Positions 3,248-60,363 of a stretch of DNA of 64,000 nucleotides are shown here, one piece after another (within the stretch, counting starts at the first letter, position 1; every line of letters starts with the position of its first letter). Source of the stretch: Prorocentrum cordatum (taxonomy: Eukaryota > Sar > Dinophyceae > Prorocentrales > Prorocentraceae); NCBI GenBank assembly GCA_963575745.1, contig CAUYUJ010009535.1, positions 36,001-100,000 on the forward strand, in the 5' to 3' direction. Below the pieces are notes generated by a model. The model saw nothing but the letters and a program-made list of their open reading frames with translations, searched no databases and was not told where the DNA came from. A program made the translations under genes and the position numbers.

Positions 3248-6200
3248 TAGGGTCTGGGGTATACCACTGACGCTCTACCGACATGCATACTATTCACGCA
3301 CGTGGGGTGCGAACGCCTCCCCGACCGCGAAGCTCGCTGCGACTCGAGACTGGCGTCGTGCTGCTCGATCATCTTGAGCTCGCAGGAAAGGAGAAAAGGC
3401 AGGGGGGCGCGAGGGGATGGACCGGAGGGAGGGGGGGATACAAGAGGGCTGGGGGTGGGTGGAAGGATTGGAGAAGGGACAGGCGGGGGAGAGGGGAAGG
3501 ATGGCGAAGTGGAAGTTGGGGGGATGGATGCGAAGGGCGCGCTCCGAAAGACACAAGTCCTCGCCAACATGCTTACTTGGGCTGGCTGTGGCCCACCAGT
3601 CCGTGAAACGCGTGCGCGGCTCCACGCCACCCAGTCGCTCGCCCTCCCCGCGCGCCGCGCGACCCTCCCAAGTCCCCAGACCTGGGCGGCCAGCAAGAGC
3701 TGCTCGCGCATGTGCGGGGTCGACCACGGGGACACGCACACGATGCCGCCGGCAACCCCGAAAGAACGCCCAGGGAACCAGACGCGTTGGCGATGCGCGT
3801 CGCTCACCGACCCTCCCGACTCCACCACGCACACAACGCCGCTCGCGTGGTCCCAGGTCATCATGTTCTCCTCAGGAACTCCCAAATGGGGTCCGAGTAG
3901 ATGGAGCCACAGGATCGCGCCGCGTCGCCGATGTATTGCCGACGATGTATCGACGGTGTATCGACGGTGTATCTGCGATGCATCGGCGCCGTCGGCGTGT
4001 AGAAAATCTGACTCCAGATCGAGCCGGATCGGCGACGCATCGATGATGCGGTGCGATCCTGCGACCCCATCTGCTCAGACCCCATTGGGAAGGCCTGGAA
4101 ATTTCCTCGCACTGCACGAAGCCAGCCACGTGCCCCATCGCCACCGCGAAGTACTTGACCAGCGACCCGCAGCAGACCTTCGGGGAAAAACATAAAGACC
4201 TCCCCGGGGCTTCGTTTCGACCAGATCTTCGACGCGAGTCCAGCCGTGGAGACGAATGCCTCCCACCAGGCAAAGGCACTGTCTCAGAACGGCGTGGTCG
4301 CAGACCGTGCGGCGACCTCGGGATCCCCAAAGACCTAACCGCCCGGTCCATCACCACACTGATTTGGGACCCTGGAGGCCCCAGTCGCCTAAGACGTCCC
4401 TGGAGAACGACACAAGTCCCAAAACCGTGCGGTGACCCCGAGTTCCCACTGACTCACCACACGGTGTGGGGGCCCCTGATAGGCGGCGACATCCGAAGCC
4501 TAACCCCACCAAGCATGAATCCTCTGGAATGGATCGCAGGCGCGCGGGGGCAGGGGTTGGATTTCGCTGCGCGCTCGACGAACTCCGAGCCCAAACCCTG
4601 CTGCCCATGAGTTGCCTGAATTGTTCATCGGCCAGGCTGCGGCTCGGATGTCGCCGCCGACCCCGAGGCATCGGAGCCTCTCCCTCGCCCGAGACCTCGG
4701 TCGGAGGGCACGCCGCTCCAAAGGGGGCACAGGACGGCCACGCCGACTGCGGCGACAGCGCCCACGGCGCCGCGCCGGGCGCGCCGCCCTCGGGCGCGCC
4801 CTCCGGCGCCCACGTCGGGCGGGCGGGCCGGTGCTCCAGCGGCCCGCTGCCCGAGGCTGGCCACCAGCGCGTGCCGCAGCCCCGCACGGCGACGAGCAAG
4901 GGAGGGCAGCCCGGGCACAGGCTGTGGCTGTTCGGCACCCCCAGGGCCCCCACCTCAGGGGAAACGTCAAGGGGTGGCCCGCACAGGGGGGGGGGGGACG
5001 GGGGAAGCATCGAGCGCAGGAATGGGCGGTGCATCGCCGAAAGATCGGCGAGTGGCCCCCGGAAGCAGAACTGCGCGTTCCTGGGCGGGGTGGGCTGTCA
5101 GGCCCGCGTCGGCGATGAGTGGGCGATTGTGGGTCGATGTGTTCCCCCCTGGGCCTATCCACCCCTGACATTGCCCCTGACGACCACGGGCTCCCCGTCC
5201 ACGAGCAGAGCCAGGCCAACGGCCCGAGGAACAAAAAACTGCACAACACACAAACCATCGGAACTCCACAATGACTCCTTGAATCGGCGCTGGACCCCCT
5301 CCCTGGCTGCCTGGCGCGCGGAGGGTGCCAGGGGCGCGCAGCGTCGATCCGAGAAACCCGCGCGGAGCACCCAACATTTGTGTTTTTTGCACTTGTTTCT
5401 TCTTCGAGATGGCGTAGCCCCGGCCCGTCATGAGGCCCTTTGTGCCGTCCACGGGGTCTATGACCCACACCCGCCCTTCGCCGGCGGCGGGGCCGCGCCC
5501 GGCGTCCACTGCCTCCAGGAACGCGTCGCGGCCCAGGCCGCCGCCACGCTGCGCGTAGAGGCCGAAGGCCAGCTCGCAGAGCGCGGGGTCCTCCCGCAAG
5601 TGGCTGGAGTCCTCCTGCCGAGGAGCGGAAACCGGCAGAAGCATCGGCCACCGTGCCTGCAAGGAGTGGGCGTGTTAGAATGATCTTCTGTTATCCCGCG
5701 AGGCTCGTTTAGTCTTTCCAGTGGCGACGCTCCCGCTCGCCGCGCGCATCGTTCAGAAAATGCCCCCCCCCCCCCCGCGCACCTCAACATTTGCTGTCCA
5801 GCGCTCTATTCCGAGACAGCTTCGAAGACAGCCAAAATGAAACCAAGACGGCCTCAGATGGCCCAAGACCACTCAAGATGCTCTCAATGGGGCCTCATGA
5901 CGGACCAAGAGGGCTCGAAGAGGCTGTCCAGGAGAGCCCGAGGAGGCAAACCCAAGACAGCCCAAAAGAGGCCCCCAAGAAATCCCCAAGCGGACCCGAA
6001 GAGGCCCCCAGGCGGCCCCCAAAAGGCGGCACCCAATCCGCCACAAGAGGCTCCGAAAACCACCACGAGGCCCCCAAGACGTCCCAAGGGAGCCGCCATG
6101 AGGCCCCCTAAGATGCTTCAAGAGACCCCGAGAAACATCACAAAAGACTCCGAGAGGCATCCAAGAAGCCTCTGGCCCACGGAGACACCCCGAGCTCTTC

Positions 6201-8047
6201 AAATGATGCGACGCTCCCCCAATCAGGGCAGCTCCCTTTGGCATCGCTCCTGGATGGTCTGGGATTCGCGAAGCGATAAGAAATCAAACTCATTCCTGCT
6301 ACGCTGTTGCACACGCGCTGGAGGGGAGTGCCGCAGGCAGCTGGATAACCTTTCAAAGCTCCGCGCAGATTTCTCGGATCGGCGCTGGGCCCCCCCCCCT
6401 GGCGGCGCCTCCAGCGCCGCCCCTGGAGCGCTCCGCTCGCCAAGAGGGGGGCCCAGCGCCGATCACAGAAATCAGCGCGGAACTCCGAACGTTCGCTCAT
6501 GCGACACGCAGTACGCAACATGAGGCCAAATCGAGCAGAACACACAAGGGCGAACCTTTGGGTGAACGCTGCAAATATGGAGAAAGAGACAGGAAAAGGA
6601 CAGAGTGGGAACGCTGAGATGCTCTCTCGCCTTGTCCCGACTACTCAACCCTGTTCGCCCTGTGCCCTCAGGAGAGCCATCGGGCGACTGCGTGCGCAGC
6701 CTGGCCGAGGGTGCCTACGCTCGTGCCGCTTAATGTGACTCGACTCCTCGCCCACCAGGGCGTCCTCGGGGAACTCCGCCCGCACGGCCTCGAAGGCGAG
6801 GGCTTGGACGGCGAGGTCCGCCGCGGTCACCGGCGTCGAGTCGCCTGGCTTGAGGCAGGACAGCCCGGCGACCACGTCGCGCTCGTCCATCTTCTTGCCC
6901 TGCGAGGGCGCGGCGGTCACCTTCATCGCGGGCCCCAAGAACATTAACCACCACCACATCCGTTCCCCCTCCCTCCTGTACCCTCCTCTTCCTCTTCTCT
7001 TTCCTGGGAGAGGAAGGGTACGGGGGAGGTGATGATGGTGTATGTTTGGGGATCATTAAAGGCCTCCCGAAATGGGTCCGAGTGGATGGGGTTGAAGGAT
7101 CGCACCGCATCGCCTGCGCATTGCCGACGCATCGGCGACGCACTGCTGCGGCCAGAGTCGAGGAAGTCGGGTTCCACATTGGGCGCATCGCCGACGCATC
7201 GGTGCAGTCGGAGTGGAGGAGCTCGGGCTCCACATCGAATCACATCACCGATGCATCGCCGATGCATCGACAAATCTATTGCACCAAATCTATTGCACAA
7301 CCCCCTTGTCGCTGGAACCCCTTCTGGCTCAACCAAAGACCTTCATTCCGCGCTCCACATCTCTGCATATCGCAGGAGGGCCAGTCGAGACCCCCGCGGG
7401 CCCCCCTGCCGAGGCTCGTCCTTCCTGGGCCTCGTAGAGGTTTCTCGTCGCCACGGCTAGATCCGCCTCGACAGAACTAATCAGGATGGGCCCTGGGCGT
7501 GGTCCGGGGGCCGAGTTTGATCGAATTTGGGCTGGTCAGGGGAGCCACCGCTGTCTCAACTGGAGGAGCAACAGATGTCATGAAAAGGAACTTTCGGACG
7601 TCCGCGCGGGTGTCTTTGATCGGCGCTGGAGCCCCCTGGTGGCGCCTCCTGCGCAGCCCCTGGCGCGCTCCGCGCGCCGTGGAAGGGGGTCCAGCGCCGA
7701 CCCAACAGATCAACGCGGGCCTCCGAAAATTTGGGTTATGTGCAGCTTTGCTCCTCGATCAGCTGGCCCCCCTCCGAGCATAGCTGCACTGCGGACTGGA
7801 CGACGTGGACCATCACGGCCACTTCCTGCTGGTAGCGGGAGCCCCAGGCCACGCCAGCCTTCGGAGGCAGCGAGAGGAGATCCTGGCCCTGGGGAGGCAA
7901 TTTTTTTCATGCCGAGATTGCGCGATGCGCTCTGGACGCCACCTGGGCCTGCAGTGCCTTGAAGAGCTGGTGGCATCTCCCAAGAAGTCTGAAGACGACT
8001 CTTTCCCCCAGGGCTGGTTTCGTATCACGAGTCGTTGTCTGACGGTC
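3223..8047 (-). CDS. SAL1: 3'(2'),5'-bisphosphate nucleotidase, HAL2/SAL1/BPNT family
   Basis: The enzyme dephosphorylates PAP (3'-phosphoadenosine 5'-phosphate) to AMP in sulfur metabolism; family members need Mg2+ and are inhibited by Li+. Exons inferred by me, high to low: 8047-7943, 7888-7752, 7476-7341, 6920-6747, 5614-5393, 5238-5185, 4953-4814, 4278-4200, 4177-4106, 3870-3682, 3378-3223 (stop TAA). They sum to 1464 nt, keep phase throughout and give about 487 residues, against about 350 for plant or yeast members; the extra length is N-terminal. Motifs in order: SRYQQEVAVMVHVVQSAVQLC (start of family homology), DSTPVTAADLAVQA, LVGEE-DSS (metal-binding EE), WVIDPVDGTKG (signature; TKG is specific for PAP phosphatases), ALLVDGEPV, GALGVPN, AVRGCGT, GSLVKYFAVAMG, and TWDHASG with VVESGG (second metal site). 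All metal-binding motifs are intact. Least certain: the first and last exons and the 4814/4278 junction. The start codon is not located; it lies upstream of 8047. Confidence 0.82.
3885..4100. mobile_element. F1 foldback element filling the 4105-3871 intron
   Basis: Left end CCCAAATGGGGTCCGAGTAG and right end CTGCTCAGACCCCATTGGGA are near-complementary. Between them are degenerate repeats of GCATCGCCGATGCATCGG. On the minus strand it occupies nearly all of a 235-bp intron (GAAATT...CTGAG) between the VKYFAVAMG and WDHASG exons of the nucleotidase gene. Confidence 0.75.
4178..4199 (-). other. Candidate 22-nt intron in the nucleotidase gene
   Basis: Minus-strand sequence GTCTTTATGTTTTTCCCC followed by GAAG separates SKRSPGE from VCCGSLVKYF. 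Removing it restores the frame that family alignment requires, it begins GT and ends AG, and AGGTCT is repeated at both junctions. It could instead be a small frame-disrupting insertion, or the true donor may lie elsewhere. Confidence 0.4.
4482..4662. mobile_element. F4 foldback element in the 4813-4279 intron
   Basis: Begins GGCGGCGACATCCGAAGCC and ends GGCTCGGATGTCGCCGCC, an almost perfect terminal inverted repeat of about 18 bp. The interior includes ACCCCACCAA and GGCGCGCGGGGGCAGGGG. A second copy lies at 62587-62762. It sits in the intron between the AVRGCGT exon and the next exon of the nucleotidase gene. Confidence 0.7.
5005..5165. mobile_element. F5 element filling the 5184-4954 intron
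   Basis: Core TGCATCGCCGAAAGATCGG, then TTCCTGGGCGGGGTGGGCT, GTCGGCGATGAGTGGGCG and TGTGTTCCCCCCTG. Closely similar sequence recurs at 47220-47400 and more diverged sequence at 45440-45560. On the minus strand it makes up most of the 231-bp intron between LLVDGEPV and GALGVPN. Confidence 0.65.
5262..5380. mobile_element. F2 foldback element filling the 5392-5239 intron
   Basis: Left side contains AATCGGCGCTGGACCCCC and right side GTCGATCCGAGAAACCCGC, the inverted F2 ends. The minus-strand intron GTGCAA...TGTGCAG is only 154 bp, and F2 occupies most of it, between the DPVDGTKG exon and the ALLVDG exon. Confidence 0.75.
5825..6175 (+). repeat. CCCAAGA-GGCC minisatellite block 1
   Basis: Degenerate tandem units of about 10-15 bp built on CCCAAGANGGCC, in the C-rich orientation on the plus strand. 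It lies inside the large 6746-5615 intron of the nucleotidase gene. Other blocks of the same family lie near 12.1, 25.6, 27.5, 28.05, 29.9, 54.5 and 55.4 kb. Confidence 0.7.
6355..6490. mobile_element. F2 foldback element in the 6746-5615 intron
   Basis: Left end CTCCGCGCAGATTTCTCGGA then TCGGCGCTGGGCC; right end GGCCCAGCGCCGATCACAGA then AATCAGCGCGGAACTCCGA. The two ends are inverted copies over about 40 bp, with a G/C-rich loop between. Confidence 0.8.
7046..7275. mobile_element. F1 foldback element in the 7340-6921 intron
   Basis: Left end AGGCCTCCCGAAATGGGTCC then GAGTGGATGGGG; interior repeats of GCATCGCCGACGCATCGG-type sequence. The right terminal inverted repeat is not recognisable; CAAATCTATTGCAC follows, twice. 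It lies in the nucleotidase intron flanked by ATGAAGGT at both splice junctions. Confidence 0.6.
7586..7736. mobile_element. F2 foldback element in the 7751-7477 intron
   Basis: Left end TCGGACGTCCGCGCGGGTGT then GATCGGCGCTGGAGCCCC; right end GGGGTCCAGCGCCGACCCAA then GCGGGCCTCCGAAAAT. It occupies much of the 275-bp intron following the family-start exon (VQLCSEGGQLIEE). Confidence 0.75.
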
Positions 8048-8255
8048 CTTATGCCCGGCGAGGACCCCCAGAGGTGAAAGCTACGACAAACCTCCGTACT
8101 GCGTTTCTCGGTAACAAATCTGGGTTAGGCATGACACCGTAATTTGTTTTTCGGCGATAACCCGGCTTATTCGGTAGGGGGGACGCAGGCGCAGACGCGC
8201 GAGTCCGCCGGCCGGCGGGCCGACAGGGCGGCGCGGGCGGGCCGGAGCCTGGTCA
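8048..8255. other. Spacer, no gene recognised
   Basis: The minus-strand frame of the first inferred nucleotidase exon can extend to about 8082 before a TAG. The rest, including GTAATTTGTTTTTCGGCG and a GC-rich run at 8170-8250, shows no feature I can name. Confidence 0.4.
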
Positions 8256-8827
8256 CAGGCGTGTGAACTTCAAGAAGTCGCACTCGAGGTCTGCCCAGAA
8301 TTTGGAATTGGTGGCACTCTGTACCCATGTGCCGTGTGCACTTCTAACCAAACCCTCCTGTAAGAATTCTGCGATGTCGTCACTCCACCGTTTCCGCTCT
8401 TCGCCTTGTCGGCATTGTGCTGGCCGGAAGTTGTGGATATCAGGTTCCCATGCCGCTGCCAGTCGGGCCCAACTGTGGTGTGGTTGTGTGGCAACTCGCC
8501 CGCCCATTTCCATTTGTGTTTGTGATAAATTGTATACCAATATTCCACATGCGCGCGCGTCGCAATGCCTGAGGCGGCGCGGGTCGCCCTGCGAGTGGAA
8601 GCGTCCCAGGACTCAATGTTGGATTCGTCATCGACGTCGTCGAAATCCAGATGTTGTCTGACGTCGGACTTGCTGTCGTCGCTTGTGCCGTCATGCTGTT
8701 CAGTGTCGGGGTTGGTTGTGCTTTCGGCGGTGCTGATGTGATGCGGTCTCTGTCGGCGTCTCGAGGCTCGTAACATGCGTCGTTGGGTCCGTCGGAGTGT
8801 CAGAAGCATATTATGTTGCGCACCCAT
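8256..8827 (-). pseudogene. C-terminal tail of a LINE-type retrotransposon ORF
   Basis: The frame 8540-8256 contains SWARLAAAWEPDIHNFRPAQ, GEERKRWSDDIAEFLQEG and FWADLECDFLKF. This fits the end of dinoflagellate non-LTR ORFs, where a Trp-rich segment precedes (R)KRW-DDI and ends W-x-x-LE-x-x-F. An adjoining open frame (8827-8540, DFDDVDDESNIESWDASTRR) is in another phase, so at least one frameshift separates them. No reverse transcriptase domain is left here. Function is inferred from family memory. Confidence 0.55.
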
Positions 8828-8917
8828 ACGTGACCGTTGGCGTCACTGTCCCGCTGAAGAGCCTGAGTCTGCTGCGAAGTGGGTACCGGCTGTCTGTGAG
8901 ATCGTTGCGGAACGGTG

Positions 8918-9014
8918 CTGGTCGAGAACCTAACCTTTTCGCTCTGGGCAACCCCACGCAGACGCAATCCCGCGCGCACCAGTACTGCGTACCCCTTTCG
9001 GACCTGCGCAGCCG
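8918..9014. repeat. Dispersed repeat shared with 52475-52560
   Basis: AACCTTTTCGCT, GCGCGC-CCAGTACTGC and GGACCTGCGCA occur in the same order and spacing here and at 52.5 kb. On the minus strand the 52.5-kb copy reads QYWRARAHVELPEAKRFGNR, which could be part of an unidentified retroelement ORF. Confidence 0.55.
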
Positions 9015-9029
9015 ACAAGGTCAGGTTAT

Positions 9030-9195
9030 CCTGGGGGGCGGGCGGGAGGGCGAGGAGGGAGAGCGAGGAGGGCGAGGAGGGGAAGGACGAAGAGGGGGAG
9101 GTCGAGGGGGACGGCGAGGAGGGGAGCGCGAGGAGGGCGAGGAGGGAGAGCGAGGAGGGCGAGGAGGGGAGGGGCGAGGAGGGGAGGAACAGCTG
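9030..9195 (+). repeat. GAGGGCGAGGAGG purine minisatellite
   Basis: About 165 bp of purine-rich tandem units (GGCGAGGAGGGGAG-like) without a fixed period. No gene. Confidence 0.8.
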
Positions 9196-9295
9196 TTCCC
9201 AGCCGAGAGCTTGGAAGGGGGGGGAGCCCCATCACTAAAGACACCCTTCCAAAAACAATCCCCAGTGGGCCGCCCCTGGCAACACCCAGGCCAGA

Positions 9296-9480
9296 GGCAT
9301 CCCCCATGGAGTCGGAGTAGATGGGGTCCGAGGGTCGCCCCGCATCGTCGATGCATCAGCGACAACGGCGTGGATAAGATCGGGCTCCACATCGAGCCGC
9401 ATTGCCGATGCATCGGCGAGGCGGCGCGATGCTCCGAACCCATCCGCTCCGACCCCATCTGGGAGGCACAGACCAACCGA
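9296..9480. mobile_element. F1 foldback element
   Basis: Left end ATGGAGTCGGAGTAGATGGG, right end CATCCGCTCCGACCCCATCT then GGGAGGC; interior CGTCGATGCATCAGCGAC and similar repeats. On the minus strand it starts just after a possible GTCTGT donor and ends before a possible TTGCCAG acceptor, so it may fill an intron between two candidate exons. Confidence 0.7.
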
Positions 9481-9485
9481 TGCCT

Positions 9486-9790
9486 GGGCGGCCCCGCTGC
9501 GTCCGCTCATCGCCCGCAGCCGCCCCCGCGACAGCGCCCTCGCGGCCAGGCCGGCGCAGACGGCGGTGCCCGCGGCGCGCCCCGCCGCCGCGGTGGGGCG
9601 CTGCCGGCGGGCGCCAGGCGGGCGCCTGCTCCAGGCTGCGGCGCTGCCCGCCGCGGCGGCACGCGCCGGCGGCGCACCGAGCGCCACCGCTGCAGCGGGC
9701 ATGCGCGTGGCAGCCGCGGGGCGGGGGCCGCGGGGGGGGAGGAGGGCCCCGGCTGCAGGCGAGAGCGCGGCCCATGCGGGGCGGGGAAGG
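9486..9790 (-). CDS. Candidate Ala/Arg-rich exon between two foldback elements
   Basis: The minus strand is open in an alanine-rich frame that ends LSRGRLRAMSGRSGAAQAS at a GTCTGT donor-like site, directly before the F1 copy at 9480. Codons have G or C at most third positions. If spliced over F1 to a TTGCCAG acceptor near 9276, the frame would continue GRPTGDCFWKGVFSDGAP. All frames here are GC-rich and open, so this is weak; no domain is recognised. It lies between the C2 exon and the nucleotidase exons and could belong to either. Confidence 0.25.
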
Positions 9791-9833
9791 CAGAGGAGCA
9801 CAACAACTCGAGTACGCCCAAGCATCCAGCGCA

Positions 9834-9948
9834 CCACACGGATCTCTTGCATCGGCGCTGGGCCCCCTGGCGGCGCCCCCTGGCGCCGCCCCGGAGGGGG
9901 GTCCAGCGCCGATCCAAGAACTCCGCGCGGACCTCCCAAAGTTGATGT
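9834..9948. mobile_element. F2 foldback element
   Basis: GCATCGGCGCTGGGCCCCCT at the left is inverted as GGGGTCCAGCGCCGATCCAA at the right, followed by AACTCCGCGCGGACCTCCC. It lies directly downstream of the C2-domain exon on the minus strand, in the position of an intron. Confidence 0.75.
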
Positions 9949-10023
9949 ATGCGCAATCTATTTCTCTTCGAAGAAAGGCCCGACAGACGCACAAGGGACA
10001 TCAGCAACTTTGCATGCGCTAGT

Positions 10024-10208
10024 GCACCGTGGACCGATAGAGGAAGCAAGGCACCTGCTTGCCAGTCGCCCCCTCCAAGCGCATCGTGACCTCACCCTCG
10101 GTCTCGTGCAGCGGCACTGTCACTTTTCCAATGAAGTCGTTGCCAGAACACGAATCGAAATCGTAGACGGTAATGGTGACCTGGCCAGGGTGATTGTCCA
10201 GCACACTT
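10024..10208 (-). CDS. C2-domain exon (Ca2+/phospholipid-binding type)
   Basis: The minus strand reads HPGQVTITVYDFDSCSGNDF, then IGKVTVPLHETEGEV and KQVPCFLYRS. This is the second half of a C2 domain: the strand-loop VYDFD-S-(x)-NDFIG carries the Asp residues that bind Ca2+, and the following strand is typical. A donor-like GTGCAC lies at about 10023, before an in-frame TAG; the upstream acceptor may be CACAAG near 10209 or CCAG near 10180. The first half of the domain must lie on exons above 10.2 kb, which I could not find. The exon is on the same strand as, and about 2 kb upstream of, the first nucleotidase exon, so it is either the end of a separate gene or part of a longer C2-nucleotidase protein. 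Confidence 0.65.
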
Positions 10209-10209
10209 G

Positions 10210-10900
10210 TGGCTAACAAAATATCCATAACCTGTCATGGCCGCGCATACGTAGTACAGCACGACGCGTTTAATCAAACACACGAATGCATGAATGACAC
10301 TGAACACCGATGCAATGCACATCGACTTCATTCAACGACGACGAGCACCTCAACGCATCAAACCCGAATTCGACGACGCAATGCGTCTCTCCCTTACAAA
10401 CTGAAGCCGTAAGAATTCTTGCATCAACATACACCTCCCAATGACATGGGCATCTAAAGCGTGATTGTGTCGCCGAAGGCACCATGCAATGACGCAGCAC
10501 CAAGCCGCGCCATACCGTGGTACGTGCACTGTGACATTTGCAGCATGATCTGATGAGGCGGACGCGCGATGTCGTGCCACGGCGCCGTGCCAACCCATGG
10601 TGCACCATTGTATCCAAACTGTGACATCATCGCCGAACTGCTGCGCCGTGCCATGCCGTGGAATCATGCCATGCTGGTGCCATGCCATGCTGTGCCGTGC
10701 CGGCGCAGTGGCGCTATTCGATGCCCACGCCGTAAATTCGCGTGGTGCCATGCCGCACCGTGGTGCCGAGCCGTGCTTTGCTCTGACGCGCCTTCAGTGG
10801 CGCACTCGAAACGTGTCCTGATGGGGCAGAGGGGCCGTTGGATACCCACCACGATGCGGTGTCAACGGAAAGTCAGTGCCCAAAGACAGCTGTAGGAGTT
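10210..10900. other. Intergenic or intronic, GCCATGCC-like degenerate repeats
   Basis: Between 10440 and 10800 there are many variants of GCCATGCC, GTGCCATGC and GCGCCGTGCC, a degenerate short repeat. No coding signal recognised. Confidence 0.4.
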
Positions 10901-10919
10901 AAACGTTTCGTATGATTCA

Positions 10920-11190
10920 TAAGGTCGCACAAATCGCTGCCCTGTGTTGTCGAAACCTGTGAAATAACTTTCTAGAACGTCCCCCCACCATATCTCCACA
11001 ACCGTCCCCCTGGTTATCCCTGTGACCTGTCCAGGCGTTATTCCTTGCATCCTCATCGCCCACCCCCATGTCCCAAACAACGCCCATCCAGTCCTCGTCG
11101 GCGTTCGCAACAAAACCGTCGTCACAATCGCCCACGTCGTCGTCAACGTATCCATGTCCTCCGCCATACGGGCTCGGATCGCTGATCTCA
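10920..11190 (-). CDS. Candidate exon rich in Asp and Gly, function unknown
   Basis: One minus-strand frame reads HGYVDDDVGDCDDGFVANAD, then EDWMGVVWDMGVGDEDARNN, with a G-leading codon pattern often seen in coding DNA; another frame of the same stretch is also open. The Asp-rich pattern superficially resembles Ca2+-binding loops but fits no EF-hand spacing. No splice site is convincing. Reported because it differs in composition from the minisatellite next to it. Confidence 0.2.
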
Positions 11191-11199
11191 CGGAGTGCT

Positions 11200-11980
11200 C
11201 GGGAAAAATTGGGCGCTCCTGGGCGCTTTCGGGGTGTCCCGCGTGAGCCGTTTGGTGACCAAGCCCGCCAACCAGACCTCCAAAGTCCACCACGAACCCG
11301 CCAAAAAACGCGGAACGGGGCCACGGAGGCCCTCGGGAGGCTCCAAGAGTCGGCGGCGCGCCGAGGGGGAAGTAAGAGGGGGCAGTCCTTCTCAGAAGGC
11401 GGCGGGGCATCTCGAAGCCCTCGGCCTTCCAAGAAGTCGTCTGTGGCTTCGCAGAAGATTCAGAAAACTTCGCCGAACAGAAGGCTCCTGAAAAGGTCCG
11501 AATCCCCCTGCCGTCCTCCCTGACCGCGCCGACGAAAGAGGCCGCAAGACACTGCAGGAGGCACACACGAGGGTCCCAGAGAAGCTCCAAGACGGTCCGA
11601 GGGCGTCCCCGCGCAGCCCTCACCAACCCTCTGGGCGCAGGTGGTCTAAGACGTTTCATGTTCCAACCCCGGTCCTGGCCCCCGCTTGGGAGGTTTACCC
11701 CCCCCCCTTTCCATGCGTTTGGACGGGGGGGGGCCGACGCATAGCAGCGTCCAACATGGCCCGAAAGAGCGGTAGATGGGTCAAGATAGCCTCCGACACA
11801 CGCCCAAGATGCCTCAAGACGGCCCCAAGACGGTTTCAAGTGTTGTCCGAAGCCTCCGATGACCCCCCCAAGAGGCCAAACCCCTTCAAACACCTAAAGA
11901 AAAACACGTGTGGTCGCCTTCTTGCTGAGACCTCAAAATGGCCCCCAAATGGTCCAAGATAGCCCCGACAGGGGTCCCAA
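11200..11980. other. No gene recognised; loose C-rich repeats
   Basis: Plus strand has scattered CCAAGA- and GCCAAAA-like words that grade into the minisatellite block below. A poly-C run lies at about 11699-11708. Nothing else is supported. Confidence 0.4.
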
Positions 11981-11984
11981 AGGG

Positions 11985-12315
11985 CCCAAGACGGCCCCAA
12001 GAGCGCCCACGAGCGCTCCAAGAGCGGGCCACGAAGGCCCCAGGACGCCCCTGTTGAACCTCCGATGGGGGAGCGGTCCGAATTAAGGAGCCCCCTCTTT
12101 TCAACGAAAAGGTGCAAGACGGCCCCAAGAGGCCCCTCAGGCATCCCAGAAGAGCCCCAAAAAGGCCCCCAGACCTCCCAAAGACCGCCAAGAGGGCCCC
12201 AAGAGCCCCAAGAAACACCAAAAAGGCCCTAAGAGGACCTCAGGGGAGCCCCAAGAAAGAGCCCCAAGAGGCCCCAAGAGGGGCCCAAGAGATTCCCAAC
12301 ATAACCCCAAGATGC
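11985..12315 (+). repeat. CCCAAGA-GGCC minisatellite block 2
   Basis: Degenerate units such as GCCCCAAGAGCGCCC and GCCCCAAGAGG, same orientation as the other blocks. Confidence 0.75.
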
Positions 12316-12528
12316 CTCCAAATTTCGGAACGCACGCGAGCTGAATATACAAACCAGCGCAACAGCCATTACGCGTCATTGAAACACCCCATCACACCCC
12401 ATCGGAGCACCATCGTAGCTTGCACCGGTTTTCATCTTAAACTTCAATGCAGGAGGCCATTCGTGATCCTTGTTTTCTCGAAGACGGCTGCGCGAATGCA
12501 TGCGCCCTGCCGCCCCGCGTGTGAGTCA

Positions 12529-12640
12529 CTTTACAACCAGAAGCGCACTTTACAACCAGATGGGTCACTTTACAACCAGCTTATAACATCCAAGAAGGGC
12601 ACTTTACAACCAGGAAGGGCACTTTACAACCAGGCAAGTA
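12529..12640 (+). repeat. CACTTTACAACCAG minisatellite, forward array
   Basis: Five copies of CACTTTACAACCAG at spacings of about 19-20 bp, one spacer being 34 bp. The inverted counterpart array is at 14099-14290. Confidence 0.9.
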
Positions 12641-12955
12641 AAAACACATATTGAATGCACGCGTGCCTTTCCCTGAAAACTCCGTGGGCAAGCGCAAGGG
12701 TGGCTTTGGGCTCCTTGAGGCATGTTGGTTGTATAGTTGCCCATCGCGCACGAAGAAGCACTGCGCACGAGTTGGCGATGCGGCGACCTGGTGCGCTATG
12801 GCATGTTGCGTGCTGGTGGGCGGATTCGAGTTTTGACCTGCTCTCTAAGCTCTGCCGGTCAGTTATGCCATTGCTGGCCCTGCCTTTTTTTTTTTTCTGA
12901 CGGGCGAAGGCTAGTCGCGCAGGACATACGAATAAACCATGATCCCGTCCAAGAC
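12641..12955. other. No gene recognised
   Basis: Open plus-strand frames exist but none resembles a known protein. A T(12) run lies near 12886. Confidence 0.3.
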
Positions 12956-12959
12956 TGGA

Positions 12960-13240
12960 GCTGCATGGCAGTGGAAAGCTGTAGTGGGAGATGTGGTGGA
13001 AGCGGGGGCTACAATGGGAACTGCATGGTGTTGGGAAGCTGCGGTGGCAACTGTGGTGGTCGCCAGGCGACGGTGGGAACTGTGGTGGTAGCTGGGCTGC
13101 AATGGGATTTGCGGTAGTAGCGGGGGGTCAGTCGGAATTGTGGTGGTAGCGGGGCTGCAGCGGTAAGTGTGGCGGTAGCAGGCACAGAGGTGGCGGTGAT
13201 GCGCTGTCACGGTGGCTCAAGCTGCTGCGCTGGCACGGTG
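12960..13240 (+). repeat. Degenerate GTGGTGG/CTGCAATGGGA repeat
   Basis: Irregular repetition of GGAAGCTG, GTGGTGGTAGC and GGCTGCAATGGGA words over about 280 bp; period near 40 bp but poorly conserved. Confidence 0.5.
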
Positions 13241-13664
13241 GCTGAGGCTGCTGCCCGAGCACGATACCTGCGTTGCTGCGCTGGCACCGTGGCTGACGCT
13301 GGAAGAAACGATCTTCGAAATAGTTGCATTTATTCGGGACGTTGAACCTCGATCTTCCAAGACGAGGAGCAGCAGGGGGCCAACTGGAGCGGGCGCACTT
13401 AGCCCCTTGCAGAACACCGTGGGGCTTCAGGGGCCAACGTGGCCCAAGAGACCCGCGGTGCCAATGGCCTAGTTCCCTGGAGCGCTGGGCCCTTGTGGAG
13501 GCCACTGGGCTCGCTTCCTGTGAGTGATCCCTAAAATGGGCAGCGCGTCGCCCTGAGCCTTCCTACGTATGCTGTCGCCTTATTCCCGTGCGAGCACGGG
13601 GCCCTTGTTGAGGCCGCTTGGCCCCTGCTAGCAAGCCCTGTCTTAGTCTGCTGGGCTCAGAGCG

Positions 13665-13920
13665 CCAGAGCGTCCAGGCGCTCGGGCTCAGAGGCATCGC
13701 TGGGGCCTGCTCAGAGCGTCCAGGCGCTCGGGCTCAGAGGCATCGCTGGGGCCTGCGCAGAGCGTCCAGGTCCTCGGGCTCAGAGGCATCGCTGGGGCCT
13801 GCGCAGAGCGCCCAGGTCCTCGGGCTCAGAGGCATCGCTGGGGCCTGCGCGGGGCGTTCAGGCGCTCGGGTTCAGAGGCATCGCTGGGGCCTGCGCAGAG
13901 AGTTCAGGCGCTCGGGCTCC
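13665..13920 (+). repeat. 46-bp tandem repeat, five copies
   Basis: GAGGCATCGCTGGGGCCTG recurs at 13691, 13737, 13783, 13829 and 13875, a strict 46-bp period. The period is not a multiple of three, so the array is unlikely to be coding. Confidence 0.9.
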
Positions 13921-14085
13921 AGAGCGCCCACGTGCTCTGGATCATTTTTCAGAGCGTCCGCGCGCCCTGGAGCACTTTTGAGAGCGCCCACTTGCTCTGG
14001 AGCATTTTTCAGAGCGCCCAATTGCTCTGGGGCATTTTTCAGAGCGCCCACTTGCTCTGGAGCACTTTGCGGAACGCCCAAACAC
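13920..14085 (+). repeat. ~30-bp tandem repeat, five copies
   Basis: Units like AGAGCGCCCACTTGCTCTGG followed by AGCATTTTTC, starting near 13921, 13952, 13980, 14011 and 14041. It abuts the 46-bp array, whose AGAGCG word it shares. Confidence 0.85.
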
Positions 14086-14098
14086 GCACGGCCACTCT

Positions 14099-14290
14099 GA
14101 GCTGGTTGTAAAGTGGTCCGTTCTGGTTGTAAAGTGGCCCGTTCTGGTTGTAAAGTGGTCCGTTCTGGTTGTAAAGTGGGCCGTTCTGGTTGCAAAGTGG
14201 ACGTTCTCGTTGAGAAAACATACTTTCCAATCCTATGTTGGTTGTAAAGTAACCCATCTGGTTGTAAAGTGGTTGTTCTGGTTGTAAAGA
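14099..14290 (-). repeat. CACTTTACAACCAG minisatellite, inverted array
   Basis: Written on the plus strand as CTGGTTGTAAAGTGG at about 21-bp intervals, at least seven copies to about 14290. It is the reverse complement of the array at 12529-12640. Confidence 0.9.
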
Positions 14291-14299
14291 GACCGAATC

Positions 14300-14950
14300 T
14301 CCTGCCGCCCCTGCCCTCTGTCGTTTCTGGATGGGCTGGTGGGGGTGCTTTTTGATCGCGACCGCGAGCGGGCACCCGCGCGGCGTCCTAAGGTCGCGCG
14401 GAAAAAAAAGGCCACTACGCTGGGCCAGTGCTAGAGTGACGAAAACGAGCAGGCGACGCAGCGCGGCACCGCGAGCGAAACAGGAGATGGCGAAGACGAC
14501 GAAGAAGGCGAAACAAGCGGAATGACGGCGAAAAGAAGGAAAAGGAGAACGCACGCGCGGCGCCGCTCAGAGGCGAAGGACCGGGCTGGCGGCCGCCAGG
14601 ACACGTTGCTCTCCAGGTACGCATGCAGCGAGTGGGCGACCGCGCACTCTAGACAATCGCCACCCTTAAGGCCATGAGCCTGCCAGACCCGAGCGCCGAG
14701 TCCGCGAACGTGCGCCAGCGAGCAGGCGGCCCAAATGGAGGCCCGCGTCGGGGGAGACCGTGCCCGGGAAGTCCATGGAGGCGCGAGTCGCGATCCGCGC
14801 CGAGTTGCAGGGAGTCCAACAGGCCGACCTCCAGGGCCGTCGCGAACCCGCAGGCGCATAGGGGACCAACCGGCCCGCGTGCCCCGGAAGGGGCGCGGGG
14901 GGCCAGAAGCGCTCGGTAGAGAGGGGGCGGCCAACAACCGCGGGAACTTC
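14300..14950. other. No gene recognised
   Basis: GC-rich sequence with open frames on both strands and none resembling a known domain. It ends where the hairpin array begins. Confidence 0.3.
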
Positions 14951-16165
14951 AGTTATCTTCGATGGGGGGCGGCTAACAGCCGGTGAAAATGGAAAATGCG
15001 CAGCTGGGGAGCGGCAGACAGCCGCGGGATGCTCGGAAGAGGTTCGCCTGAGACCAGTCGACGCACATCTGGGGCGCGGCTAACAGCCGCGGGTGGTAGG
15101 AACAAAAAGGCCCGCCAGAAACGTGCCGAGGCCTGGCGGGGGCGCGGCTAACAGCCGCGGAAAGGTAGGCGACGGCTTCGCCTGAGACCAGCCGACGCCC
15201 GGGCGGGGTGCAGCTTGGCGACGCCTCGACTTGCCGCAGCATGAGTGGGGGGGCAAACAACCGCGGGAAGGTGGGGCGGTGCCGCCTGAGACCTGCCGAA
15301 GCGCAGCTGGGGCGCGGCTAACGGCCGCGGGACGAAAGGGAATGGCCCCGCCCGAGACCCACCGAAGCCTCGCTAGGGCGCGGCTGACAGCCTCGGGATG
15401 GCGGGAGAAGGTTTCGCTCGAGGCCTGCCTATGCCCGGACGGGGCGCGTTTGACAGACGCGGGCAAGTAGGAAAAGGATTCGCCTGAGACCTGCCGATGC
15501 CCCGCTGGGGCGCGGCAAACAGCCGCTGGATGGTGGGGGAAGGCTTCGCCCGGGACATGCCGACGCCCTGCAGGGGCGCGGCAGGCAACCGCGGGAAGGC
15601 GGGAAATGGTTTCGCCCGAATCACGCTAAAACTCTGGGGCGCGGCGGACAGCCGCGGAATGGTAGGGGGGGGGCCCGCCCGCAAGGGCGACTGGGGCGCG
15701 GCTGACAGCCGCGAGAGGGCGAGACATGGTCTCGCCCGAGACCTGCCGATGCCCGGCTGGAGCGCGGCTAACAGCCGCGGGACGGTTGGAAAAGGCTTCG
15801 CCTGAGACGCGCGGATGCTTCGACGGGGCGCAGCTGACAGCCGCGGAGTGACAGGAGAAGGCCACGCCTGCGAGGTCGAGGGCGTCGGCGATGGAGAGGC
15901 GATCTGATCGAGCATCGCCTGGGGCGCGGTTGACAGCCGCGGGAATGGCGAAGTGGCCAGGGTCAAATCATTGTGCCCGATCCTCCTCGCGAACGGGCCC
16001 ACCGCCCGTTCCACCCTGGCGCGGCAGACAGCCGCGGCGGCGTGGAGCGGGCGGCGGGCGGATCAGGCTACTGGAGCCCGAGGGCCAATCGGAGCCAAGT
16101 GCATGTTCGTCAGGGGGCCGCTTCGCCTGAAACCTGCCCGGGCGAATTGGGGCGCGGCTAGCAAT
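14950..16165 (+). repeat. ~65-bp tandem array, each unit with a GC hairpin
   Basis: About 17 units, each centred on GGGGCGCGGCTAACAGCCGC, found near 14958, 15008, 15072, 15140, 15247, 15309, 15376, 15440, 15506, 15573, 15635, 15694, 15759, 15824, 15922, 16016 and 16150. In most units CGCGGCT pairs with AGCCGCG around a 3-nt loop. Between hairpins recur GGTTTCGCCTGAGACC and CCGATGCCC. Confidence 0.9.
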
Positions 16166-16980
16166 GGCAAGCGCTGGGTCGGTCGCGCGCGAAGAAGCGC
16201 CCGTGGTCGGCGCAGCGAGGGCAGCCGAACGGGGGAAGGGTGGCGGGCCGCCGCCGTGGAGTTTGTGGGGGGCCCCAAGTACAAGGTGGCGACCCAGGCG
16301 AATCCAATGGGTCAGCCGGCGGAGCGGGGGGGGGGGGCGGCTGACAAGGGTGAGGAAGTAATCCAGCGGGACCTTCGCGAGCCTGCCGGGCCCCCGCGGG
16401 AGAGCGCAAGGGCGCTGCAGGTGCGCGGGGCAGCGGGGCGCTGCAGCGGAGGGCTGCCGCAGGGGCCCCTGCAGCAGCAGGGGCCCAAAAGGTGGGGGAG
16501 GGGGTGGGCGGGGGGGGGCAATCCCCGGGCCGCCCCATAGCGTGCCGGGGGGGGGCGGCAGTCATCCAAGGGGAGAAGGGCCGCAAATTGGCACCCCAGA
16601 GAGAAGCTCCGTGCCTGGGACGGGCCAACAGCCCCAGCTGGGTGCGTCAGAGGTGGCATTGCGCGCACGCAGAGGCCCGCGCAGGAGTAAGCCGTCCCAA
16701 TGACCAGGAAAAATAAGCCCCAAGGGGCCCATAGGTAATGTTGCGGCGCCCGCGGTTGCGGCTGCGTGAGCGCACCGGACCGGCCTTCGCCAGGCCTAGG
16801 AGAGCGCCCAGGGCTGGCGCGCGCCCATTGCCTTTCTGGGGCCCGCAGTTCTATTCTGCCGGGCGTCGCTGTCTTCGCGCGGCCCATTTGCCTTTAGCTG
16901 TGCCGGGGTTGCTCGCGCTTCTACCTCTGTCGCGGATGCGAGCGCGGGCGGGCCCCCATTCGACTCCAAACTTGGGAGCA
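16165..16980. other. No gene recognised
   Basis: Very GC-rich with poly-G runs (16328-16338, 16509-16518, 16548-16555). Open frames are compositional. Confidence 0.3.
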
Positions 16981-16984
16981 GTGT

Positions 16985-18000
16985 TCATCGTGAAAACGTT
17001 GCACCTGCAGTATAGTAGGACCACTCGTCAAGGAAACGCGACCAGGACTCCGGCGGTTGGCGCGCGGGGCCAGCACAGGCCCTGCCTGTGTGCGGGGGGC
17101 GCGCGGTTGTCCATTGGTGCCATAGGTCAGTGAAGTAATCACCCAGCTCCCTCTGGGGCCTTTTCACGACGACTGTCTCGAAGGGGGTCTTGTAGATGTA
17201 TTTCCCTGTCACTGGATCGCGAAGGTCTTGTGGGCCCTCGACCTGGGCGCTCCTGCGGTCGCGCTGGCCCGGGGCGGCGCCAGCTTGGGCGCTGACGTTA
17301 GAAGGCCAAGGGTGGGGAGGTCGTCGTGCTCGGTGGCGTGAGTCCGCGTAGGCCGGCCCCAACGGTCGTCAGACCCCCAGCTGGACCACCTTGGCCAGTC
17401 GGCCCAGTGCTTGCCGCAGGGACTGCTGCGACTGGTCTCGCAGTGGCGGCGCGGGCGACGCTCGCGCCATCTTTCGTTCCAGCCGCGCCCGCCCCGCGTG
17501 CTGGCGGCCGGGGTTTCCCTTTATATGCCGGGGGAGCGCGGGGCGCCCCGCTCGGGCAAGCGCGCGAGATTCCTGTCATCCCGCCCGGCGAGTGCGGAGG
17601 GGCCGCGCGGGTCGGCGGCGGGCGACGCGGGGCTGCTGGGCTTGCCTTCGCGCTCGGGGCTATCCGAAGAGTGGGCGACCACCGGTGGCTCGGAACTCGA
17701 TGACGGAGAAAGGGCGACTGGTGCCCCTTGGTGTCCCCGTTGCGAGGCGGGCAGGCTGCCTCGGGGGCCCTCTGCAGAGGCCTCCGAAACCTCATCCACT
17801 TGGCCAGCAGCACCGCCGCTGTTCGAGACTGGAGCAAGGCTTCCCGAGGTGGCGGAATGGCGGGGGAGAGCAGCCGGAGCGGGGCTGGCAAGCCGCGCGC
17901 GGATGTCGTCAGGGGAGCGCGAGGTTACTCGTCGATTGCACGGTGGGCTGGTGTCACTGCGCACAGACGACGTAGGGGAGCGTGCCACGCTGTCGTTCTA
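16985..18000 (-). pseudogene. Unidentified coding-like region, possibly a degenerate ORF
   Basis: Downstream part (17362-16985) contains DPVTGKYIYKTPFETVVVKR, GDYFTDLWHQW and WSRFLDEWSYYTAG, which look like real protein; upstream (17988-17521) is a Ser/Pro/Ala-rich open frame typical of disordered regions. The two parts are in different frames with stops between. No domain recognised. An old retroelement ORF or exons of a gene with unseen introns are both possible. Confidence 0.3.
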
Positions 18001-18019
18001 GTCAGGGTCATCTGGGGAG

Positions 18020-19010
18020 CGGGGGCCAAAGGGCTGGTGGAGATACTTTTTAGTCAGCTGCCGAAGGCGAGCGCGCCAGCGGCGAGTCCAGTCAGAGCGG
18101 GGGGCGCGCAGACGAATTAACCTGAAGCGGTGGGCCAGACCCTCACGCATCACCTCAGCGGCGAGCCAACGAGTGGAAAGGGCAAGCGGTAGGCGGGTCA
18201 CCAATACTGCCAAAGTCGCGCGCAACTGGTCGGAGCAACGGGCGGCCAGGGCAACCGACAACCAGGGAAAGCTGCAGACGGGAATTAGGCACATGGGCGC
18301 GAGCCCCCGGACTACTGCGAAAGTACCAGGGTGGCCGCAGCCAAGTAAACCGACGGTCGGAGGTCGAATTGGGTGCCCAGACTGGGCATGTACATCGGCA
18401 AGCTGCGAGGTACCAGGGTGGCCGAGGCCGGGAGGTCCAACAGCAGCAGCACGCACAAGTGCGAAGAGCAACCAAACTGCAGCGCGGCCAAATGGCGCGA
18501 GGGCACGGAAGGCTGGTGGGGATATGTTTTTAGTTAGCGGCCGCAGGCGAGCGCGCCAGCGGCGAGTCCAGTAGAAGCGGGGCACGCGACCACGAATTAG
18601 CCTAAAGCGACGGGGCGCAACCACACCGAAAGCGGGACAAAGCCTCACGCAGCGCCTCGGCGGCGAACCGGCGAGTGGAAGTGGCTGGCGGTAAGCTGAA
18701 ACAATACTGCCAGGGTGCAGGTACGCAACGCGTCGGAAGCTGCAGCTCGACGGGGGGGCCGTCGACCCGGGACAGCAGCAGACGTGGAAATAGATGCAAG
18801 GGCGCAAGCCCCCTGACAACTGCGAAGATACACGGGTGGCCGCAGCCAGTGAACCGACTGTCGGACGTCGAATTGGGTGCCCAGAGGGGACGTAAGCGTT
18901 GGCAACCTGCGAAGTACCAGGGTGGCTGGGGCCAAGAGGTCCAACAGCAGCATAATGCACAAGTGCAAGGAGCAGCCAAGCTGCAGCGCGGCCAAGAGCG
19001 CGATCCGCGG
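18020..19010 (+). repeat. 479-bp tandem duplication
   Basis: GGCTGGTGGNGATA and GCGAGCGCGCCAGCGGCGAG near 18031 recur near 18510; CCAACAGCAGCA and CTGCAGCGCGGCCAA near 18437-18490 recur near 18940-19000. Both copies keep the order of GTGGCCGCAGCCA and GAATTGGGTGCCCAGA. The copies are clearly diverged. Confidence 0.85.
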
Positions 19011-19699
19011 TCGGAGCACGCCCCCCCAAGGGGCCCCGAAGACACCGCCAAAAGACCCCCGAGACGCTCCCAGAGGCCCCCCCAAACCCCTCCAAGAGAT
19101 TCTCGAGAGGCCCCTCATGAGATCCCAAGAAAACATCCCAAGGAGGCCTTCGTCCGAGTCCCAAGCACAGCCGTGCACCCAGGACGCTGCGAGCACGAAG
19201 AAGTCACCAGGCAACTCTTCGCCCACACGTGCGTCACACTCCTAGGGAGCGGCCGTTGATGCGCCGCCAGCGTCCTCGATTACCTGAACGTAAATGCCAA
19301 CCAAGATCTTCTGGTTCCGGCGTGCCAGGTCCCAACATCCAACTTTCCGACCTCCGACCTTGCAGCCCCCACCCTTGTACTCCCATTGCCAACCCCACAC
19401 ATACCAATCCCCAACTTTCCCCTCGCCTCGGCATCGCTCCAAAGCAGGCCCAAGCAAGACACCCGACGCGAAACGCTCGCCCTACACCTCTGCGCCGACG
19501 CGCGCGTCAAGGCCCCAAAGGTCGGCTGGTGATGTGCCGCCGGCGTTCTCGACAACCGAAGCGTGATCCTATCAACCGCGAAAACAATACCACGCCGTGC
19601 AGTGCCCAGGCGCCGTGCGCTGGCACTTCTCGACGCCGTGCCGCGCAGGCTTGCCGAGGTTCTAACGCAATGCGTCTCGAGACACCAAGCCACCGATCT
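19011..19699. other. No gene recognised; partial CCCAAGA-like repeats
   Basis: 19020-19160 has CCGAAGACACC- and CCCAAGAAAAC-like words. The remainder shows nothing I can name. Confidence 0.3.
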
Positions 19700-19895
19700 C
19701 GGGAGCGGCCAAGAGGGGGGTGTCCAAGAGGGGGGGGGGGGGGCGAATCATCACCGGCGGCATGTGCGCGGCCCAGCGGGGGGGCCAGGGACGTAATGAG
19801 ATAAGAAGAGGCGCCCTGAAATCTGGGGAAATATCATGGCCCCCGCCATGATATCCAACCCCTCCTGGTCATCACCCCCCTCTTTGCCGCCCCCG
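19700..19895. mobile_element. F3 foldback element, copy 1
   Basis: Starts CGGGAGCGGCCAAGAGGGGG and ends CCCCCCTCTTTGCCGCCCCC then CG, an inverted pair. It carries AATATCATGGCC-CCCGCCATGATATCC, an internal palindrome. The copy at 62914-63108 is nearly the same length and matches over most of it, including AATGAGATAAGAAGAGGCGC. Confidence 0.85.
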
Positions 19896-19899
19896 ACGA

Positions 19900-20715
19900 T
19901 CACGCAAGGAGCTTGGGCCTGGAGGAGAGGAGGGCAGCAGAAGGCGCAGGAGCGCCGGGCCCCGGGGTGAAGCCCAGACTCAACCCAACGCCCAGAGCGA
20001 TCGATGGAGCGGCCGTGGCGGCAGGGCAAGCCTCTGGACGGACGTCAGGGGAGCCGCACATCAGGAAGGAAAAAACACGGTGGCGTTTGAAGGGGCCCAG
20101 GGAGACACAAACAAGTGGACACAAATAACAGGATTCCCCATATTTCCCCATATTTTCTGGGCTGTCGTCTTCTCCCCCCCCACTTTTCGCATTTTCCCAT
20201 ATCTTCCTGGGAGTCGACGCTTAATTGTGTCTGTGTGTTTCTTGCCCTCCTGAACGTTGTACTACGAGTGTGGGTGGGGTGGCGGCAAGAGGCTCGACCA
20301 GGAATCCACTCTGGGATGATTGAAGGCCCTGGAGCTGGAGGAGGGAGGGGGCGGGAATGAGGAAGGATGGAGGATGCAGGGATGGAACCAAAGGGTAGCA
20401 ATCAAGATGGAGGGGGGCCAAACCTCCGACAACCTGTCGTGATCCCACCAACCCATTGGGCGAAGGCGGTCACCGAGCCGTTGTTTTCCTTGGAAGCGTC
20501 CCGAAGGGTTAGAACGCGAAACAATGCCCAAGAGACACAGCAGCGCACATTGATTTTCCTGTGGGCTTTGAAGTGTTTCCGCCTCCGACGGGGGCAGACC
20601 CAAATTGCGCGCTTCCTCTTTTGTTGGCTATGGGGCCCAAGACCGCTCCAAGACAGGCCCCATAAATACATTACTGTACTGATCCACGCCCCCGAGGCCA
20701 CCTCTTGCCTTCTAC
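19900..20715. other. No gene recognised
   Basis: A minus-strand frame near 20090-19905 (ATAAPSIALGVGLSLGFTPG) is open and compositionally protein-like but has no domain and no clear splice sites. Confidence 0.3.
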
Positions 20716-20768
20716 CCCTCCTCCTCCTCCTCCTCCTCCTCCTCCTCCTCCTCCTCCTCCTCCTCCCC
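20716..20768 (+). repeat. (CTC)n microsatellite
   Basis: About 17 near-perfect CTC units. Confidence 0.95.
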
Positions 20769-20899
20769 CTCCAGCCGCGGTGACAAGCCCGCGCGCGGCC
20801 TGCTTCCAGCCCGCGGTGCACCCGAATCGGTGGTGGTAGCTGCGGACGGCCTCGGATCTCCGCCGGCGCGAGCGCGCCGCCGCCGCGCCCCGAGGGACC

Positions 20900-21060
20900 C
20901 CCCCCTTTGTTCAAGGAGACGTAAGACTCGGGTGCGGGGGACCCGGGTTGGCCTGACGGGGCCATCATGCAAATGACGAGACCCGGTCTGAAATTCGACG
21001 CGAGCTCCTGCTGCGAGTATCCCACGACGGCAGGAGCGTCACAATCCAGGACGCGCGCGC
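20900..21060 (-). CDS. Weak exon candidate, function unknown
   Basis: Minus-strand frame VLDCDAPAVVGYSQQELASN, then FRPGLVICMMAPSGQPG and PESYVSLNKG, differs from the low-complexity reading around it and resembles protein. No domain was recognised and the splice boundaries are unknown. Confidence 0.25.
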
Positions 21061-22267
21061 GAAGCCCCACCCAGCTCGACACGAGCGAGGGCTACGGGAC
21101 CAGCGCCCCTGCTGCGTGCCTTGCTTGGCCGCTCTCCAAGCCCCGCCAGAAACACGCGCGGTGCGGTGCACACCTTCCCGGATCCGAGGGCCCACAACCG
21201 TGCACCGTAGCATTCCCAGGTCGAGGGTCGACGACGCCTCGGGAGACGCAAGCGCGGTACGGTGCACGCAAGCCGTGCGCGGAAGGGGGATCGCCGGCAG
21301 GACCCCCGGCCTCCTGCATCTCGCACACCGCGGCAAGGAGGGGCCACGGCCGAGGGGAACCCCCGCACAGTATGGGACCCTCGGCCACAAGAGACCCTTC
21401 CACTTATGCTGCTCCCATCGCACTTGAAGACCACATCCCAGAGATAATTTCGAGCACCCAGAAAAGTGTCGAAAGATAGTCGAAAGAGTGTCGGAAGAGC
21501 GTCTCCCAGGGCCCGACGCGTGAAAACCCTCGAGCTTGGGTACCCTTTTTGGTGCTCGAAATTCTTTCTGGTGGTCAAAGCTGAAGTAGGTTGGAACATC
21601 ATAACCCTCCACAGAGCGAACCCCGACCACGGGATCCAGTAGCCTCGGTGGGCTCGAGGCCTGGGGAAGTCGTGGGGCCCGAAGCACTCCTGCAGCACGA
21701 AAGGGGGGCGGGGAGGCTCTTGCTAAGACGAAACCAAGACCAAGACAAGATCGGACCGGGACAAATCGGGAGCAGATGAAATCCGGCAATGTTGAAGGAT
21801 GTGCAGTCAGGCGCCGCGGCCGTTCCAGAGCGCTCCCGAACGCTCTGAAAGCGTTCGGGAGTGCCCCTTGAACGATCTGTCCCGGTCCTGGCTCCACGTG
21901 ACATGCTGCGCGTCCCCACTGTACTGGAACCAGTCGTGCTGGCAGCCGGCGCCTCAGTGCAGCGGCTGCACGCTTTGGGGAAGCCCACACCTCCCTCCCC
22001 CGACATGACGGTCGAACCCCCCCGCTTCCCACCCCCTGTCTGCGCAGCATGTAGGAGGGAGATTCGTTCCTCCTCCTCTCCTCATTGAGGAGGAGCCCCG
22101 CCCCTCTTTCAGTCCAGGACTCTATCCCAGAAGGCGTTTCACTCCCCCTGCAGCACGGTGCGATCCAAGCAGGGGTGGGGTGGGAGGAGAGATAAGAGCA
22201 AGGGGGATGGAGGGACGAAGGGCGGCGGAGGAGTGGAAGAACAGAAAAGAGGGTGGAAGTGCAAGAG
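21061..22267. other. No gene recognised
   Basis: Long open frames on both strands look compositional. GTGCGGTGCACAC-like words recur near 21160, 21255 and 21210 but do not form a tandem array. Confidence 0.3.
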
Positions 22268-22427
22268 GGGGTGGCCCAAGAGGGGGGCTCGCGAAAAATG
22301 TGCGCGGACAAGGGGGTGCCAATTGACGTATTGTAACGAGAAGTGGGGGTCATGAAACCCGAAGAGATATCATGGCCATGCCCATGATACTCCCCCCTAG
22401 GTCATTACCCCCTCCTGGCCGCCCCCG
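22268..22427. mobile_element. F3 foldback element, diverged copy
   Basis: Left GGTGGCCCAAGAGGGGGG, right CCCCTCCTGGCCGCCCCCGA, with internal GATATCATGGCC...CCATGATAC. Shorter and more diverged than the copies at 19.7 and 62.9 kb. Confidence 0.6.
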
Positions 22428-60362: not shown

Positions 60363-60363
60363 A

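Follow-up and report, generated by a model that had tools for sequence, protein, structure and literature searches.

The 64,000-nucleotide stretch of DNA analysed here, from the bloom-forming alga Prorocentrum cordatum (C9535:36001-100000, hereafter the window) carries on its minus strand a gene for what its profile match indicates is a 3'(2'),5'-bisphosphate nucleotidase of the HAL2/BPNT type, whose introns contain foldback elements of four repeated families, F1, F2, F4 and F5. A composite protein inferred from the minus strand matches PF00459 in Pfam (E 1.6e-27), and its relatives in the PDB include HAL2 (1k9y). It also matches P0001, an unnamed P. cordatum product of 490 aa that carries PF00459, and exon limits were set by spliced alignment of this deposited protein to the window. 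Residues 1-485 of P0001 are reproduced exactly by a gene span of 3682..23362 (minus strand), interrupted by 11 introns. All acceptors are AG, and the donors comprise five GC, three GT and three GA. The introns are all in phase 0, mostly following CAG or GAG, largely because of composition: 22 of the 28 AG|G sites of the coding sequence are in phase 0, with the introns' own junctions counted in. The last five residues (ANMKP) can be placed only via two extra introns without AG acceptors, a placement that we distrust.

An earlier note, made from the letters of the window, had assigned foldback elements of the four families to introns of the downstream part of this gene. Six introns lie there in the alignment (7753-6921, 6746-5615, 5413-5239, 5184-4954, 4695-4178 and 4105-3871), and all six do hold F1, F2, F4 or F5 sequence once their limits are corrected. 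The note had given seven intervals under a title that spoke of six introns. Those at 6746-5615, 5184-4954 and 4105-3871 were exact and the rest misplaced: 7751-7477 and 7340-6921, given as two introns, form the single intron 7753-6921, 4813-4279 is replaced by 4695-4178, and 5392-5239 had the right acceptor, its donor lying at 5413 in the deposited protein. An exon proposed at 7476-7341 was rejected, as it falls outside P0001, is not among the 33 stretches with a coding score above 14, and has a matching insertion in none of ten aligned homologues (P0010 has no coverage there).

Three of the six introns are filled by an element whose ends lie at the splice sites. The F1-filled intron (3871..4105, minus strand, as are all introns below) has a GA donor and a CTGAG acceptor, with GAG|GA at both ends. 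The F5-filled intron (4954..5184) is bounded by terminal inverted repeats (TIRs) of the form TCAGGGG...CCCCTGA. The third intron (5239..5413) is apparently made by F2; its GC donor lies at the left target duplication, and its acceptor falls within the right TIR, 15 nt from the end.

The position of this last acceptor bears on the protein. P0001 reads GYFFVPRAVGLALL where homologues show GYVIGLALL, GYVVGLALL or similar, and the residues FFVPR are missing from all ten aligned homologues. These residues are coded by 15 nt of the right F2 TIR that remain in the exon (5224..5238, minus strand), and they would be kept in the protein because the acceptor lies that far inside the repeat. No other AG occurs between 5239 and the conserved GLALL, and extra codons therefore follow from any AG acceptor there; the donor at 5392 favoured in the earlier note would add seven more residues to P0001. 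GCCAT on the left and GCCGT on the right bracket the element, and when it is removed the codons give GYAVGL, near the homologue reading. Taken together, these comparisons support the retention of residues apparently coded by a transposon in the deposited protein.

The ends of the elements can be judged from copies elsewhere in the genome (4.13 Gb, 21,875 contigs), in which F1, F2 and F5 recur; F4 has one further copy in the window and one in a fetched genome flank. The searches scored the best candidates only, and copy counts refer to the matches listed. Among the F1 matches listed, 35 of 39 start at least 3 nt inside intron 4105-3871 at the donor side, and none of the 39 reaches more than 6 nt into the preceding exon. 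The F1 foldback was found in 25 of 27 fetched loci, measures 123-244 nt (often 233), and typically opens with TCTAGGCCTCC or its inverted end. For F5, 27 of the 39 matches listed begin no more than 8 nt from the donor of 5184-4954, and seven come within 5 nt of its acceptor or pass it; the right TIR motif, itself taken from these loci, is present in 19 of 28. Of the F2 matches listed, 28 of the 50 non-self rows (23 of the best 40) extend at least 10 nt beyond the acceptor 5239; these copies put the end of the element 10-14 nt into the exon, in the part that codes FFVPR. Perfect 5-bp target duplications flank F1 at 11 of 18 loci, against 3.0 in swapped pairs, and F2 at 9 of 20, against 2.0; in both cases none of 5000 shuffles was as high. 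F1 and F2 thus have the terminal inverted repeats and fixed-length duplication of TIR DNA transposons or miniature inverted-repeat transposable elements (MITEs). Three scans for the F1 and F2 patterns in viral and prokaryote collections gave no matches. One F1 copy (L003, on C18576) shares about 11 extra bases upstream of the element (GCGAGGAAATT) with the exon-intron junction at 4105 (window about 4110-4100). We consider it highly probable that F1, F2 and F5 are MITEs that occasionally land in exons and are spliced, and that introns 5413-5239, 5184-4954 and 4105-3871 were made in this way.

The principal alternative, which we judge unlikely, is that these are ordinary intronic transposons: the introns would be old, and the elements would have entered them later at random positions. 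The element ends at the splice sites in three introns, and in one it runs over into codons, which speaks against random entry, as does the frequency of terminal foldbacks. Defined as foldbacks scoring 28 or more whose two arms each lie no more than 20 nt from a splice site, these occur in 4 of the 10 introns shorter than 2 kb, compared with 2 of 600 random stretches drawn from the non-gene part of the window with lengths matched to the six shortest introns. Each of the ten introns has one foldback that scores above ten shuffles of itself, and in eight the best foldback was equalled in only 0-3 random non-gene stretches of equal length (20 or 40 drawn). The best foldbacks of 4695-4178 and 22734-20851 are not unusual, because random stretches reach them in 6 of 40 and 10 of 20 cases, respectively. 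The inverted-repeat component of the pattern published for P. cordatum, taken here as an exact inverted repeat of at least 8 nt within 30 bases of both intron ends, is present in 3 of the 11 introns (those with donors at 23305, 5184 and 4105), against 1.6% of 3000 random stretches, and absent from the other eight. Intron 5413-5239 is among the latter because its right arm lies partly in the exon. Fold z-scores are -10.0 for intron 4105-3871 and -3.5 for the other two filled introns.

In the remaining introns the elements take other positions, some of which suit later entry. The element lies well inside the intron, off the ends, in 5615..6746 (F2 foldback 6494-6352, 13% of the intron) and in 9601..10054 (F2 stretch 9943-9839), as ordinary intronic transposons might. 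The single intron 6921..7753 contains F2 (7756-7563), which begins at the donor, and an F1-like stretch (7280-7060); 4178..4695 has an internal F4 foldback (about 4664-4481) and AGGTCT at both junctions; and 7859..9483 has an F1 foldback (9467-9297) 16 nt off its donor. F5-like stretches lie between 22680 and 22491 in 20851..22734, and 22786..23305 has GC-rich terminal inverted repeats of its own, with CAGGCG at both junctions. Non-filling elements tend to lie near the donor, four of seven being in the first tenth of the intron (Kolmogorov-Smirnov p 0.02, in a post hoc comparison with element starts partly extrapolated). In the three introns of the downstream part that are not filled, the element may have either given rise to the intron or inserted into it later; the earlier statement that most of these introns are insertions is shown for only three of the six. 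A perfect 8-nt direct repeat, ATGAAGGT, occurs at 7346-7339 and 6926-6919, the second copy spanning the acceptor. We discarded it as a mark of insertion at an existing acceptor, since the repeat and the F1-like stretch are not adjacent. An imperfect GC-rich inverted repeat (9491-9614 / 9663-9782) pairs exon 9600-9484 with the adjoining intron.

The nucleotidase occupies the gene from about 9600 to 3682 (minus strand, by PF00459), and P0001 fuses it to a C2-like part (23362-10055, minus strand, by spliced alignment), which may reflect a fused gene model. In two genome paralogues (L033 and L035), the C2 part runs unbroken across three of the intron positions; these are either intron-free copies or the state before intron gain. 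Outside the gene, the families recur in the window as the earlier note had said, with matches to F1 at 48845..49096, F2 at 59120..59235, F5 (two matched pieces) at 47152..47391 and F4 at 62585..62765. A coding-score search of the window found, beyond the exons of this gene, mostly simple repeats, and gave no placement of the family copies at 40-63 kb inside or outside introns. At 59914-60450 (minus strand) a long ATG-type repeat yields an open frame of methionines and leucines.

The earlier note had proposed to test whether copies across the genome lie preferentially between splice sites, as would be expected of families devoted to making introns; no such enrichment was seen. The joined flanks of genome copies were scored for codon usage, with P0001 and two long open reading frames as the training set; the copies were picked by similarity to the elements of this gene, and the score would miss some exons. 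Flank pairs exceeded the 95% coding score of the control in 1 of 25 cases for F1, 0 of 27 for F2 and 0 of 28 for F5, that is, in 1 of 80, where about four are expected by the threshold alone (a small sample, scored without gene models). The gene's own junctions score 5.7 to 17.4 in one scoring and 5.8 to 17.8 in another, and 8 or 9 of the 11 pass, these junctions being in the training set. The low flank scores therefore indicate that the sampled copies lie mostly in non-coding DNA; in a very large family, even a small fraction of the copies might amount to many introns. Further family matches were found in 31 flank stretches in about 184 kb (F1 6, F2 14, F5 10, F4 1), from which no genome totals follow, because the choice of flanks biases them. 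Nor are the insertions evidently recent, as the earlier note had proposed, because the copies are only 67-89% alike: over the matched parts, and among the matches listed, identity to the elements of this gene is 81-89% for F1, 67-85% for F2 and 75-85% for F5. The target duplications in the gene are mostly imperfect, and nothing supports very recent insertion. Dispersed copies without exon bias, and their divergence, are also what ordinary intronic transposons would show. That F1, F2, F4 and F5 are specialised introners, which mainly create introns in genes, is very improbable: their structure is like that of described introners, in a species whose introns the available part of one report describes as introner-enriched (PMC10666404), but all but one of the 80 sampled flank pairs fall short of the coding threshold that most of this gene's junctions pass, and each family fills just one intron of this gene.

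The origin from MITEs that we favour could proceed as follows. F1, F2 and F5 would be non-autonomous TIR DNA transposons, common in the 4.1-Gb genome and presumably mobilized by a cognate transposase, of which a copy now and then inserts into an exon. The donor, G(T/C/A), would come from the target duplication and a nearby AG from the terminal repeat; because both sites are thereby supplied, the spliceosome could excise the element, and the reading frame would survive. Where the AG lies 15 nt inside the right TIR, as in F2, five element-coded residues would stay. Splicing of each intron in the cell is likewise presumed, from the deposited protein and the sequence. Such an origin might explain the mixture of GT, GC and GA donors, if the duplication dictates the second donor base. 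Across the 11 introns, a small sample, in-register matches between the bases at the donor and those at the acceptor exceed those of swapped pairs (permutation p 0.004), and in 7 of the 11 base 2 of the donor is identical to base 2 of the exon that follows (expected proportion 0.26, p 0.015).

Several observations weigh against the MITE origin of these introns. Over positions +2 to +6 alone, the in-gene matches give p 0.054, and direct repeats without a fixed register do not differ from swapped pairs (mean score 11.2 vs 10.6). The 5-bp duplication fits intron 4105-3871 only if the ends are moved about 4 nt from the family consensus, and that of intron 5413-5239 has one mismatch. Elsewhere in the genome, two of the 11 perfect F1 duplications (at L005 and L008) fall inside the element ends, and F5 duplications are not significant (2 of 19 vs 1.1 in swapped pairs). 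The earlier note had the element making up most of each short intron, as it does in the three filled ones; in the other three of the downstream part each element covers 13-36% of the length, with element limits set by us, and the introns consist mostly of other sequence. Finally, a genome search in which 87 of 458 candidates were scored matched the nucleotidase part only at its own locus, and neither an allele lacking the element nor an orthologous gene structure was seen.

If the MITE origin holds, the gene allows a base-by-base view of how a mobile element becomes a spliced intron, protein scar included, and it separates an intron-making family from a common element that occasionally becomes an intron. 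The most notable parts are the missing exon preference and the donor-base rule. Should that rule hold genome-wide, the unusual splice sites of dinoflagellates would be a side effect of target duplication. We offer only tentatively the broader idea that in large dinoflagellate genomes introns can arise without a specialised introner: for any abundant MITE that lands in an exon, an AG near its end might be enough, the duplication would set the second donor base, and later insertions downstream of the first element, ahead of the acceptor, could lengthen the intron.

Introners are reported in many eukaryotes including Symbiodinium (Gozashti 2022, PMC9860276), and a study of P. cordatum itself, which used a pattern search, describes the introns of this species as enriched in introner elements (Dougan 2023, PMC10666404); the available part of the latter names no families or footprints for this gene. 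A literature search, with subscription journals mostly outside its reach, recognised no description of the F1, F2, F4 or F5 families. Judged by what defines an introner, F1, F2 and F5 are repeated genome-wide, F4 being represented by its two additional copies, and in three of the six introns of the downstream part the element fills the intron. In what is accessible of Gozashti 2022, introners resemble the elements described here in their TIRs, short target duplications, element-carried 3' splice site and 5' site derived from the duplication. They differ in that here each family has one filled intron in the gene and the sampled copies lie away from exons. In Amphidinium, the two ends of introns had been found to carry identical bases already in 2008, according to the portion of PMC2488372 available. 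The introner elements of Amoebophrya, as far as the accessible text describes them (Farhat 2021, PMC7789003), share inverted repeats (8-20 nt), direct repeats (3-5 nt) at exon-intron limits, hairpin introns and non-GT donors; the terminal dinucleotides of the non-canonical introns described there carry no clear signature, whereas all 11 acceptors here are AG. Polarella glacialis, in the summary of Roy 2023 given by a partly available review (PMC11453091), has 15 introner families with at least 100 introns each, and is thus a further dinoflagellate with many families in one genome. The codon-adding insertions that the accessible part of Gozashti 2022 illustrates with Aureococcus parallel the putative FFVPR scar. 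The origin of introns from TIR elements is thus well supported for three of the six introns in the downstream part of this gene, in a species in which introners were already known.
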